From contig NZ_JACIJM010000002.1 in assembly GCF_014199395.1 (NCBI RefSeq), forward strand, positions 62,001-126,000: a stretch of 64,000 nt of DNA, in the 5' to 3' direction. The position numbers and the translations under genes were made by a program. Positions 57,873-60,590 of the stretch are shown piece by piece. The DNA comes from Yoonia ponticola (lineage in GTDB: Bacteria > Pseudomonadota > Alphaproteobacteria > Rhodobacterales > Rhodobacteraceae). Numbering within the stretch: the first letter of the stretch is position 1; each line of letters begins with the position of its first letter. The notes beneath the pieces were generated by a model, which saw only the letters and a list, made by a program, of their open reading frames with translations, did not search any database and had not been told where the DNA came from.

Positions 57873-57960
57873 CCAGCGCAAGGCAGGGGCCTAAATGGGC
57901 GCGTCCTTGAACGATTCAAGGACCAAGTGCCGCACCCTTGTCAAAACGGAAACCAAAGAC

Positions 57961-58602
57961 ATGACACGTATTCTTCCCGGCGTAATCGCCATGGCTGCTA
58001 TTGTAGTTGCCTCTAATATCCTTGTGCAATTTCTGATCCTTGACGGATTGTTAACGTGGGGGGCATTCACCTATCCGCTCGCGTTCCTTGTCACCGACGT
58101 GATGAACCGTCTTTACGGGGCCCCGACGGCACGCAAGGTTGTGTTCGCAGGGCTTTTGACTGGCATTGTATGTTCAATGATCGGCACGCAAATTGTTTTC
58201 GACAGCGAATACGGCCCTTATAGCGCAGTTGCGTTGCGTGTTGCCATCGGGTCCGCCGTTGCGTTCGGTGTCGCCCAACTGCTGGACGTCGCCGTGTTCA
58301 ACCGACTGCGTGACGGATCATGGTGGAAGGCGCCGCTTGGGTCGACCTTGGTCAGCTCAACAGTGGATACGGTGATCTTTTTCACCATCGCGTTCTCTGC
58401 GCCTTTCAACGGGTTATCGGCTGCCGCGACGGATGAAGTCGTTTGGGCGCAGGATGCTGTTCCGTTTCTGACCGCAGGCCCAGCCGTTCCTTTGTGGGTT
58501 TCTTTGGCCGTTGCTGACTGGATGGTGAAGCTGGTGATTGCATTGCTGGCGTTGGTGCCGTTTCGCATTATTGTTGGGCGATTTGCGTCTCAGCCGCGTT
58601 AA
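57961..58602 (+). CDS. Queuosine-precursor transporter (VUT/YhhQ family)
   Basis: 213 residues with about six membrane helices. VASNILVQF (~15-23) and TYPLAFLVTDVMNRLYG (~42-58) are signatures of the vitamin-uptake-transporter family (YhhQ/QueT-like), which imports 7-cyano-7-deazaguanine for tRNA queuosine. ATG 57961 is preceded by only a weak AACGGAAACC site. Substrate assignment is by family. Confidence 0.85.
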   Translation: MTRILPGVIAMAAIVVASNILVQFLILDGLLTWGAFTYPLAFLVTDVMNRLYGAPTARKVVFAGLLTGIVCSMIGTQIVFDSEYGPYSAVALRVAIGSAVAFGVAQLLDVAVFNRLRDGSWWKAPLGSTLVSSTVDTVIFFTIAFSAPFNGLSAAATDEVVWAQDAVPFLTAGPAVPLWVSLAVADWMVKLVIALLALVPFRIIVGRFASQPR

Positions 58603-58700
58603 ACGGTCCTGTCACAAAAAATTATCTTGATTTTCAGATCAGGTGTGCCACCTTCCATTGTATAGGCGAAACATTTTGAAAGGAGGTGATCCAGTGCATC

Positions 58701-58766
58701 ATGAAGTATTGGAGAAGGCAGTCGGGACAACTTGTGGGGGTCTCATCTAGGGCAGCCCCTAGTTAA
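58701..58766 (+). CDS. Candidate mini-protein (21 aa) in the structured transcript
   Basis: ATG 58701 to TAA 58764-58766 gives a basic peptide starting MKYWRRQSGQLVG. The alternative is GTG 58694 in another frame (18 residues, starting MHHEVLEKAVG, stop TAG at 58748-58750), which is better spaced (7 bases) from the AGGAGG core. Only one frame is likely to be used. The first stop lies within the CTAGGG/CCCTAG hairpin. Confidence 0.35.
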   Translation: MKYWRRQSGQLVGVSSRAAPS

Positions 58767-58817
58767 GAAGACCACAGGGTGGGCGACCTAACCGACCCCC
58801 CTCCGCTATTCAGATAA

Positions 58818-58849
58818 GGGCCACCCCATCGCCGGGGCGGCCCTTTTTC
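58818..58849 (+). terminator. Intrinsic terminator of the structured transcript
   Basis: GGGCCACCCC, loop ATCGCC, GGGGCGGCCC followed by TTTTT. Strong stem and T-run. Confidence 0.9.
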
Positions 58850-59120: not shown

Positions 59121-59552
59121 ATGCTGAAAGAACCGATGAAGATTAACGATCAGATCACGCTAGAGGATTGGGAATTGACCGAGCAGTTTGCGCGGGCCTC
59201 TGGTCCGGGTGGGCAGAACGTGAATAAAGTGTCGACGGCGGTGGAGCTGCGGTTCGAGGCCGCGCGGTCACCGAATTTGACCGAGGCCGTGAAGCGGCGG
59301 CTGCGGCGGGTCGCAGGCCAGAAATGGACGAAGGACGGGGCGGTGGTGCTGTTTGTGCAGGACACGCGGTCACAGGCGCGGAACCGCGAGATTGCGCGGG
59401 ACCGTCTGGCGGAGATGATCGTGCAGGCGCTGCATGTGCCCAAACGCCGGATCGGGACAAAGCCGACTTATGGGTCGGTCAAGCGGCGGCTTGAGGGGAA
59501 GAAGGTACGCGGGGCTGTGAAGAAGTTGCGGGGGAAGGTTGGGGATGAGTGA
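59121..59552 (+). CDS. arfB: Alternative ribosome-rescue factor B (peptidyl-tRNA hydrolase ArfB/YaeJ)
   Basis: 143 residues. The catalytic GGQ is at about residues 30-32 in RASGPGGQNVNKVSTAVELRF. The C-terminus is a basic tail (KRRLEGKKVRGAVKKLRGK), which inserts into the empty mRNA channel of stalled ribosomes. It hydrolyses peptidyl-tRNA on ribosomes lacking a stop codon. Start 59121 (MLKEPMKINDQ) could instead be the Met five codons later. Converges with the SIR2-like gene, 15 bases away. Confidence 0.93.
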   Translation: MLKEPMKINDQITLEDWELTEQFARASGPGGQNVNKVSTAVELRFEAARSPNLTEAVKRRLRRVAGQKWTKDGAVVLFVQDTRSQARNREIARDRLAEMIVQALHVPKRRIGTKPTYGSVKRRLEGKKVRGAVKKLRGKVGDE

Positions 59553-59567
59553 AAGCTAATTAGCGTT

Positions 59568-60590
59568 TCACCAATCACGAAACTCAAGAATGTTATCGAA
59601 AGTAACTAAATTAACTTCACCGCCTAACCGATTTTTCCAATCTTTCTTTTGCTGCGCGGGATCACCATTTGTCCGTTGAACAACCTTTATGGTTTTATCC
59701 GACCTGTTATTTTTAATGAGTTTGTTAAGGTGATCATCACAACCCGAATACCCAAAGATGACTATTTCTTCGGACTCTCCGATCGCTACAGGCAAATGAT
59801 CCCAGTACATCTGTAGAACTTTCGAAGCTTGGATGACACTTGGCTTCATTTTCCCGTTAGTCAGCACGATATGACTACGTTGTGATCCATCCTCATAGGC
59901 CAATTGAGATCTATTTATTTTCTTTGGCGTGCCGTCCCCAGCATCTACAAACAAAGGTGATCCGTGCAAATGCATATAGAACGCTGCAGATGCTTGGTTC
60001 CAATGTTTCCGCTGCATATTAGAGTCAGAAAAACCGGTATTAGCGGTATAGCCGTCACGAAGTGTCCCACTGAAACCACTACAGAGCTGTATTGTCTTAC
60101 CGCCTATTTCTCTTTCTTCGTTAAAGGGAGCATACAATAATGTATCATAATTCAATGTCGCCACATGCGATTTTGAATCAAAAATGAATCCTACCAGCGC
60201 GTCAATGAATGGCTCCCAATTTTCATTGTCGCACTCCGTTAAATCAAAGCCATGAAAGTACTTGGCAACCATGTAGGTATAGCGCTGCAAAGCCTCAGGA
60301 TAACTTATGGCATCTTTGGTCAGCCAATGTTCCAACTCATCGTCTTTAACTGCAAATTGAAGAACTCGAAAAGCCATTAGCGCTAATTGTGTACCAAAAA
60401 GCTCTTCTTCATTCGTCGGGCCGTCGCCCACTTCAACGCCCTCAATAGCAGACGCAATAAGCCGACGTTGATCGTTAGAGATTAAATCGTTCGTTTCCCA
60501 CACAGTTTTCATCGCTGCGGGTAACTGGAAAAAATCATTGTCCAATGCACGGCCAAGGCCGTTACCGAAAATAATCGTTTTGCGAGGCAT
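59568..60590 (-). CDS. SIR2-like NAD-binding protein (candidate defence NADase)
   Basis: 340 residues. Visible SIR2-like motifs are an N-terminal Rossmann-type IIFGNGLGRALDND (6-19), TLNYDTLLY (145-153, with the candidate catalytic Asn), YMHLHGSPLF (205-214, candidate catalytic His) and VIFGYSGCDDHL (277-288). Standalone SIR2-like proteins of this kind often act in antiphage defence by degrading NAD+; that role is inference. The gene is clearly more AT-rich than its neighbours, with different codon use, suggesting horizontal acquisition. Its weak ribosome-binding site and start lie 43 bases after the pncB stop, same strand. No integrase or second effector adjoins it. Confidence 0.75.
   Translation of the reverse strand: MPRKTIIFGNGLGRALDNDFFQLPAAMKTVWETNDLISNDQRRLIASAIEGVEVGDGPTNEEELFGTQLALMAFRVLQFAVKDDELEHWLTKDAISYPEALQRYTYMVAKYFHGFDLTECDNENWEPFIDALVGFIFDSKSHVATLNYDTLLYAPFNEEREIGGKTIQLCSGFSGTLRDGYTANTGFSDSNMQRKHWNQASAAFYMHLHGSPLFVDAGDGTPKKINRSQLAYEDGSQRSHIVLTNGKMKPSVIQASKVLQMYWDHLPVAIGESEEIVIFGYSGCDDHLNKLIKNNRSDKTIKVVQRTNGDPAQQKKDWKNRLGGEVNLVTFDNILEFRDW

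Follow-up and report, generated by a model that had tools for sequence, protein, structure and literature searches.

In Flavobacterium, the autoregulation of rpsU (bS21) involves an extended Shine-Dalgarno (SD) sequence with an energy below -13 kcal/mol, typically present in one gene per genome (PMC9976891; this source and the other PMC-numbered ones are cited from excerpts, to which our statements about them are confined). In Staphylococcus aureus, an extended SD has been described whose core is followed by AU, in the direction of a GUG start overlapping a competing AUG; exchanging this AU for GU restores selection, and the A-U pair can give way to G-U without loss (PMC13009471). SmelA075-type sRNAs carry an anti-SD motif (CCUCCUCCC) in hairpin loops (PMC3927594). 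As to the Alphaproteobacteria, most start codons of Caulobacter have no SD sequence (PMC4117421), the Rfam family RF01867 (CC2171) appears in a list of structure updates (PMC11701678), and a table of Mesorhizobium huakuii sRNAs annotates MH_s33 as CC2171, with a second interval of 215 nt that seems to be an RNA-seq product (PMC5596092).

The locus described here lies in a stretch of 64,000 nucleotides from Yoonia ponticola (Rhodobacterales; Rhodobacteraceae), hereafter the window, and is best explained as a free-standing mini-gene with its own predicted promoter and terminator, giving an RNA of about 185 bases (Table 1). The mini-gene is real and widespread, well beyond chance, and the main new points are that selection appears to act on translation with a fixed end, on the fold and on the complementarity to the 16S rRNA. 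An earlier note on this DNA had proposed a structured transcript unit whose ribosome-binding block is exceptional, a description that holds for a unit that is also conserved; what does not hold is the assignment of all 17 bases of the block to the ribosome, since its 3′ part, UCCAG, also forms the start-codon hairpin P2.

Table 1. Features of the mini-gene and its neighbours in the window (positions counted from the first letter of the window)
Feature	Position	Strand	Parts or partner	Basis or remark
Upstream neighbour, Vut_1 (PF02592) protein	57895..58602	+		Pfam match
Promoter-like site	58627..58654	+	-35 TTGATT 58627-58632; TG 58646-58647; -10 CACCTT 58649-58654	Family consensus, window fitted by eye
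Extended SD block GAAAGGAGGTGATCCAG	58678..58694	+		Exact complement of 16S 3′ tail
P1, 5′ strand (core SD GGAGGTG), long-range	58682..58688	+	Partner 58798-58804	99.4% of cells paired (90 copies)
P2, start-codon hairpin	58690..58713	+	58690-58697 with 58706-58713	96.4% of cells paired
18-codon GTG frame VHHEVLEKAVGTTCGGLI	58694..58750	+	Stop TAG 58748-58750	Conservation of length and stop
P4, 5′ strand GUCGG (codons 10-11)	58721..58725	+	Partner CCGAC 58792-58796	94-96% paired
P3a, 5′ strand CUUGUGG (codons 13-15)	58731..58737	+	Partner 58772-58778	Folding; overlaps SD-like G-rich stretch
Stop-codon hairpin	58747..58762	+	58747-58752/58757-58762	5′ strand holds the stop
Common 3′ strand CCGACCCCCCUCC	58792..58804	+	Codons 10-11 and SD, or local hairpin P5	
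Intrinsic terminator	58816..58848	+	Stem 58816-58845, then T run	Folding, double changes
Downstream neighbour, RF-1 domain protein (PF00472)	59121..59552	+		Pfam match

The block had been placed at 58677-58693, one base too far to the left of its true position, 58678-58694, where the GTG start codon begins with its final G. That it is an exact complement of the 16S 3′ tail, as the note also had it, is borne out by the 16S 3′ end of the same genome (contig C23). It occurs once in the window and is the sole match there with up to three mismatches, for an expectation of 0.08 from shuffles; in the 3.73-Mb genome, the 14-mer AAAGGAGGTGATCC is found twice, i.e. in the mini-gene and in the rRNA locus, and the 10-mer AAGGAGGTGA five times, these two places included. 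By simple arithmetic, about 0.0004 exact 17-mers would be expected by chance per 3.73 Mb, both strands taken together. An antisense fragment of a 16S gene was considered and rejected: the match stops after the block (TG, against CC in the 16S antisense), and the unit's own conserved frame and fold also speak against it.

Among 90 family copies the exact 17-mer is kept in 52, and GGAGGTG in all 90. The AAA before the core, unpaired in the fold, is conserved (columns 6, 7 and 8 hold A in 88, 90 and 90 of the 90 copies), and so is a purine after the core at column 16, also unpaired: A in 64 copies, G in 21, C in 3 and missing in 2, i.e. a purine in 85 of the 88 with a letter, all these counts being raw and uncorrected for relatedness. 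Either A or G at column 16 is able to pair with a U of the 16S. Because these positions are conserved though unpaired, selection for 16S pairing looks as if it reached past the usual core, over about 11 bases. In the two copies with a TTG start, P2 is retained by a double change that costs one 16S match; together with the place of UCCAG in P2, this suggests that the ribosome's part is about AAAGGAGGUG plus one purine and not all 17 bases. Roughly, then, the ribosome-pairing part would be AAAGGAGGTG and a purine, with UCCAG belonging at least partly to the start-codon hairpin. The CUGG end of the 16S match is within helix 45 and would not be free in the mature 30S subunit.

A BLAST search with the unit found the mini-gene in 25 of 25 genomes of the same genus and in none of 16 genomes from other families of the class. 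A covariance model, R1, was built from 46 of 63 Rhodobacterales units remaining after removal of near-identical ones (set A1), which had been chosen by an exact or near-exact block and an 18-codon frame. With one genome per genus, R1 matched 217 of 248 family genomes at E ≤ 0.001; in 10 of these 217 the best E is weaker than 1e-10 (weakest 1.2e-4, by hand count), and some may be chance matches. Conservation beyond this genome, which the earlier note had asked for as a check, is therefore found. The 90 copies (alignment A2) are places from the 217-genome search, i.e. the best 30 loci and 60 others among the matches listed; named loci with the same unit and the same neighbours come from Loktanella and similar genera.

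At the level of the class, the pattern AAAGGAGGTGATCCAGTG with at most one mismatch occurs in 36 of 289 genomes, and an exact-pattern scan of GTDB contigs gave at least 119 stretches; we take the 80 listed titles to stand mostly for Rhizobiales, Caulobacterales, Rhodospirillales and Rhodobacterales, with a few others. Outside the family, the block mostly opens short frames, 14 to 35 codons long, whose peptides are dissimilar by eye while the block persists. A 14-codon variant, VSxxKRCHLAGIAR, was seen at ten loci (L082, L088, L093, L094, L104, L113, L114, L128, L141 and L142), in hosts that are Bradyrhizobium or Bradyrhizobiaceae among the titles shown; the single one of them tested, L082, gave no CC2171 match at cut-off. 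The block is not confined to CC2171-like mini-genes, judging from its place before longer, ordinary-looking frames, of 57 aa in L045 and L081 (a Geminicoccaceae MAG), both signal-peptide-like by eye, and of more than 100 aa in L169. Exact blocks were also seen in MAG contigs labelled Phycisphaerales (L068, L118), Nitrosomonadales (L107) and Deltaproteobacteria (L126). Here, as in L164 and L171, they precede short frames of 11-26 aa, of VRD type in L107, L164 and L171; these six cases reflect either a wider spread or mis-binned contigs.

The Rhodobacterales promoter consensus reads TTGACA-N16-CANNNT, with TG before the -10. In 91 upstream stretches taken from 90 loci, TTGACA is exact in 47 and matched at four or more of its six positions in 86, the best place falling within a 24-base range; a scan of the window with the strict TATAAT/sigma-70 consensus found neither promoter nor terminator. 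Transcription would be expected to start near 58661, and given the conserved promoter-like site the mini-gene need not depend on the gene upstream. In many Rhodobacterales copies (L180-L269) the promoter spacer, 58633-58648 in the window, holds an imperfect dyad, ACACAAAATCTGTG(T), which is conserved beyond the needs of a spacer and is possibly an operator; in the window it is degenerate. The terminator announced by the earlier note was recovered both by folding and by double changes, which affect 11 of its 12 pairs in the family alignment, where 98.0% of its cells are paired.

The neighbours are kept as well. The Vut_1 protein, presumably of YhhQ type (yhhQ), is encoded upstream in the same orientation at 90 of 91 loci. 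The RF-1 domain protein, which we take to be ArfB-like (arfB), is encoded downstream at 71 of 80, again in the same orientation; the 94 loci behind these counts contain the window's own unit two times, as L003 and L190. For arfB, the available downstream DNA of 9 of the 80 loci gave no match, and elsewhere the gene can be as far as 1.1 kb off; at loci of other types, tblastn against the flanking DNA searched gave no match to either neighbour. On the minus strand of the window, a weak SIR2_2/DUF4917 match at 59568-60590, below both Pfam cut-offs, sits between the ArfB-like gene and a nicotinate phosphoribosyltransferase gene. Since these two genes are adjacent in relatives such as L067, L071, L110 and L137, the matching stretch may be an insertion, perhaps defence-related.

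The RNAalifold structure of the family alignment, which comprises P1, P2, P4 and the terminator, has 97.5% of its cells paired, against 41.5-55.5% when slid, and 98 double-change cells against 19.1 in shuffles; A2 was aligned to the R1 fold model, and these counts therefore lean toward the model. Two further helices, P3a and the stop-codon hairpin, were missed by the automatic alignment and located by folding. P1, whose partner motif C[AG][CU]CUCC stands before the terminator, changes on one side only in the 90 copies. The earlier note's 7-bp long-range pairing agrees with the seven pairs of P1 in relatives; in the window's species one of these is a U-C mismatch, and the window itself has five pairs, GGAGG:CCUCC, in the centroid fold only. 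This centroid fold contains P1, P2, P4, P3a, the stop-codon hairpin and the terminator, the minimum-energy fold being without P1, and the fold energy is mildly better than that of shuffles (z of -1.94, or -1.20 without the terminator). In P4, three pairs show double changes. P3a has several pair types at nucleotides 38-40 of the frame, and its native energy is -30.2 kcal/mol, against -26.4 with the far strand swapped between species, 66 of 89 copies being below that mean.

The core SD has a mean pairing probability of 0.95 over the 90 copies, against 0.67 with shuffled downstream sequence, and the stop codon one of 0.80 against 0.33 in shuffles (89 copies). The stem holding a stop codon that the earlier note had mentioned is present. 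Where the stop bases change on independent supported branches, the partner compensates or stays unchanged and never does the opposite (3:0 and about 4:0, too few for significance). Predicted helices enclose the core SD, the start codon and the stop codon alike. For P5, the local hairpin that the common 3′ strand can form, one base is C-G in 41 copies, T-A in 25, T-G in 1, A-T in 1 and unpaired in 21; the native energy is -12.2 kcal/mol against -10.4 for chimeras, with 50 of 89 copies below the chimera mean, and the best double change amounts to one well-supported independent event, or six when all branches are counted. P5 is weak in the window's genome, and as the rival fold it is the weakest link of the switch model discussed below. 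Taken as a whole, comparison of genomes indicates that the fold appears to be selected. Changes in the stems are not random, and nor are those in the GTG frame, which answers a second check proposed in the earlier note.

This frame has 18 codons in 89 of the 90 family copies and 17 in one, and starts with GTG in 88 and TTG in 2; the copies were found with R1, whose training rows all had a frame of 18 codons, although the model makes no such demand on a match. Leaving out the 17-codon row, as in all codon-level counts, the stop is TAG in 38, TGA in 30 and TAA in 21 copies, and on a YhhQ protein tree (89 tips, picked for the 18-codon frame, one of the window's two duplicate entries, L003 and L190, being left out) its identity changed at least 26 times. 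The other two frames contain stops in 43 and 46 of the 89 rows. With a length fixed at 18 codons while stops exchange, the RNA appears to be under selection for translation ending at a fixed point. The earlier note had seen two competing mini-ORFs. Both exist (GTG at 58694, 18 codons; ATG at 58701, 21 codons), but they are not equal rivals, since the former start is GTG or TTG in 90 of 90 copies and the ATG is found in only 3 of 89, for which reason it was rejected as a gene. An ATG at +7 is present in all 25 same-genus genomes, and in one of them (L027) its frame stops after 6 codons.

Constraint within the frame is uneven. In codons 16-18, positions 1 and 2 are on average as variable as position 3 or more so (entropies of 1.40, 1.83 and 1.87; 1.73, 1.78 and 1.54; 1.96, 1.64 and 0.69). 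Codon 7 is GAG and codon 12 ACA in every one of the 89 rows, without even a synonymous change, which points to a constraint at the RNA level. Ser2 is kept in 83 of 89 copies with a free third base, and codon 11 is mostly Gly, by way of GGG or GGA. Single changes between close copies are synonymous and non-synonymous in a ratio of 173/280 in the GTG frame, and of 165/330 and 124/414 in the other two. This slight excess of synonymous changes in the GTG frame means that the peptide may play some part, most of all towards its N-terminus. Nevertheless, the conserved features are mainly the RNA sequence, the length of the frame and the position of the stop.

In 88 of 89 copies, the G-rich stretch shortly before the stop provides an SD-like 4-mer between nucleotides 36 and 50 of the frame, for 34 expected in shuffles; in the 46 copies where the stretch is GGAGG, five to seven bases separate its end from the last codon. 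It could hold a terminating ribosome, and helix P3a explains part of it; among paired P3a cells at nucleotides 41-45, there is no C-G pair and the frame strand is purine-rich, which favours an extra role. As a class-wide feature, the SD-like stretch before the stop was rejected: it is strong in Rhodobacterales but confounded with P3a, and it is weaker in the CC2171 type. Among 93 CC2171-type frames, chosen by the block and including one Rhodobacterales frame (L149), it is found at -7 kcal/mol or better in 25%, against 7% of codon-shuffled frames.

How may these features work together? The model to which we would give an even chance is that of a small translated RNA whose fold must be opened by a strongly recruited ribosome, so that ribosome loading is a switch between two folds. 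The RNA would first fold so that helices enclose the core SD and both ends of the frame, the start codon as well as the stop. Next, AAAGGAGGTG(A/G) would be paired by a 30S subunit whose 16S 3′ tail is free, and this pairing would pay for the opening of the fold; in the energy model (means of the 90 copies), opening the SD costs 9.7 kcal/mol and the duplex with a free 16S tail is at -17.6 kcal/mol, so that such a subunit could indeed open the RNA. The ribosome would go on to read 18 codons, stop at a fixed point and break every helix with a strand in the SD or the frame, i.e. P1, P2, P4, P3a and the stop-codon hairpin. As all helices except P5 and the terminator have such a strand, none of the others would survive its passage, and the freed 3′ strand might refold alone into P5. 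In the cell, by inference, the passing ribosome would flip the fold. Action of the RNA is favoured over action of the peptide, since the last codons show little amino-acid constraint, yet their number and the stop are kept.

The same uneven constraint bears on the most obvious alternative, an ordinary small-protein gene, in which the 18-aa peptide would be the product, the long SD would ensure a high output and the fold would regulate it. A promoter-like site and a terminator of its own, the conserved Ser2 with its free third base, the mostly Gly codon 11 and the longer frames that the same block precedes elsewhere (L045, L081, L169) are all what one would expect of such a gene. However, codons 16-18 vary freely though their number is kept, the peptides found outside the family bear no likeness by eye despite the persisting block, and codons 7 and 12 do not change even synonymously, so that we regard this possibility as a serious but doubtful one. 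It is unlikely, in our opinion, that the RNA is a decoy whose block binds and holds small subunits and thereby limits initiation elsewhere. The energy of the predicted duplex with a free tail would suit this role, as would the excess of SD-like stretches near the stop, if these hold terminating ribosomes, and the purine-rich P3a strand devoid of C-G pairs at nucleotides 41-45; but the G-rich stretch is also explained by P3a, titration needs an RNA as abundant as ribosomes, or nearly so, and folding predictions for the family put the SD inside a helix. With a core SD folded at 0.95, the pinning of 30S subunits would first have to open the fold.

That the unit is a leader controlling the downstream arfB, or a 3′ appendage of yhhQ, is suggested by the strict conservation of both neighbours and seems very unlikely all the same: the unit has its own promoter-like site, a strong terminator precedes arfB, this gene was not found on the available downstream DNA of 9 of 80 loci and is up to 1.1 kb off in others, and the loci of other types gave no tblastn match to either neighbour in the DNA searched. 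It is on this neighbour evidence that control of arfB was judged unlikely. Hardly any weight can be given to a noncoding, trans-acting sRNA with an incidental frame. Rfam assigns CC2171 the type of an sRNA gene, and the SD regions of mRNAs could be targets of the anti-SD-like 3′ strand, but an incidental frame would hardly keep its length in 89 of 90 copies with exchanging stops.

Landt et al. 2008 is reportedly the source of CC2171, and in the literature searched we found no paper describing a function for it. The excerpts of PMC11005374, PMC8625941, PMC5107571 and PMC5521070 contain nothing bearing on the mini-gene, and those of PMC10117765, supplements apart, no homologue. Against the window unit, RF01867 scores 33.8 bits, short of its gathering cut-off of 75, with an E of 2e-5 on 651 bases and of 2.7e-5 across the genome. 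The CC2171 model consensus resembles the window unit in having the same block at the same place (GAAAGGAGGUGAUCCAGUG), a GUG and a terminator behind, but the middle part does not align with the model's closing helix and was skipped in the alignment. At E ≤ 0.001, RF01867 matches 85 of the 385 genomes of the class, 13 of them over the cut-off, only Caulobacter vibrioides among 14 control genomes, and, at its cut-off, 8 of 20 tested block loci from outside the family. Two or three matches at E ≤ 0.001 in each of five genomes (G036, G063, G268, G294, G301) are paralogues or chance. R1, for its part, matches 53 of 289 class genomes at E ≤ 0.01, and of the 52 places that it finds outside the family, 33 lie over an RF01867 match of the same strand and 19 do not (hand count). 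Since both models share the block and the terminator, and R1 has a stray match of 9.7e-5 in the window's own genome, this overlap supports one kind of locus but does not prove one ancestor. The mini-gene is best seen as a Rhodobacterales branch of this kind and a distant relative of the Caulobacter sRNA CC2171.

The two types differ in their peptides, as compared by eye, in their neighbours, which are not shared, and in the predicted state of the SD, which is folded in Rhodobacterales and, in 76 CC2171-type units, less folded than in shuffles (0.62 against 0.72), so that sequestration is not general to the kind. The loci of this set, as well as those of the 14-codon set (7 units), were chosen by the block and are uninformative on its conservation. 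An internal mimic of the 16S tail, CTGGATCnTCGCCTCC, in the CC2171 frame had been suspected by reading to be an SD-sequestering strand; folding spoke against it. In both types, pairing of the last 25 nt ahead of the terminator with SD or frame exceeds that found when the spacer is shuffled (0.47 against 0.27 in one, 0.63 against 0.36 in the other), whereas 11 units with a 14-codon frame, from any genus, show no such excess (0.09 against 0.16); 70 of 132, 70 of 76 and 11 of 11 units entered this test.

A kind of RNA catalogued only as a noncoding sRNA thus has a family-wide Rhodobacterales branch bearing marks of translation, and for the units with the same block and short frames in other orders, translation is plausible. 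The mini-gene offers a clean natural case of what the longest SD matches are for, and the ribosome-loading switch is a directly testable prediction. One may also speculate, though we find it improbable, that the kind is a class-wide alphaproteobacterial sensor of ribosome state: since 16S pairing must beat the internal anti-SD strand, only subunits with a free tail would open the RNA, and the freed anti-SD-like strand would act in trans on other strong SD sites. If so, the supply of SD-competent ribosomes would feed back on the choice of messages translated.

Compared with systems described elsewhere, the mini-gene departs from SmelA075-type sRNAs in that its CCUCC strand is in predicted stems, not in loops. 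With leader-peptide attenuators of the rnTrpL type it has in common a short translated frame on a small RNA (PMC10117765); unlike in these, the terminator overlaps neither fold (P1-P5), no choice between terminator and antiterminator is predicted, and no controlled gene was identified behind it, arfB not being found downstream in 9 of 80 loci. In icaR of S. aureus, initiation is hindered by a C-rich stretch near the 3′ end that pairs with the SD of its own transcript, much as in the present model, but icaR is a full-length protein gene and the pairing is an RNase III substrate (PMC3868564). The A to G exchange at column 16 is the same as that from AU to GU in the extended SDs of S. aureus, which belong to ordinary mRNAs without a folded mini-RNA (PMC13009471). 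With rpsU of Flavobacterium, finally, the mini-gene shares a long pairing with the 16S tail and would share an outstandingly strong SD (PMC9976891), the energies of the two, -17.9 kcal/mol in the energy model for the window's own unit and below -13 for rpsU, coming from different programs; rpsU, however, encodes bS21, in species that hide the 16S tail (PMC9976891), whereas the mini-gene has a frame of 18 amino acids.
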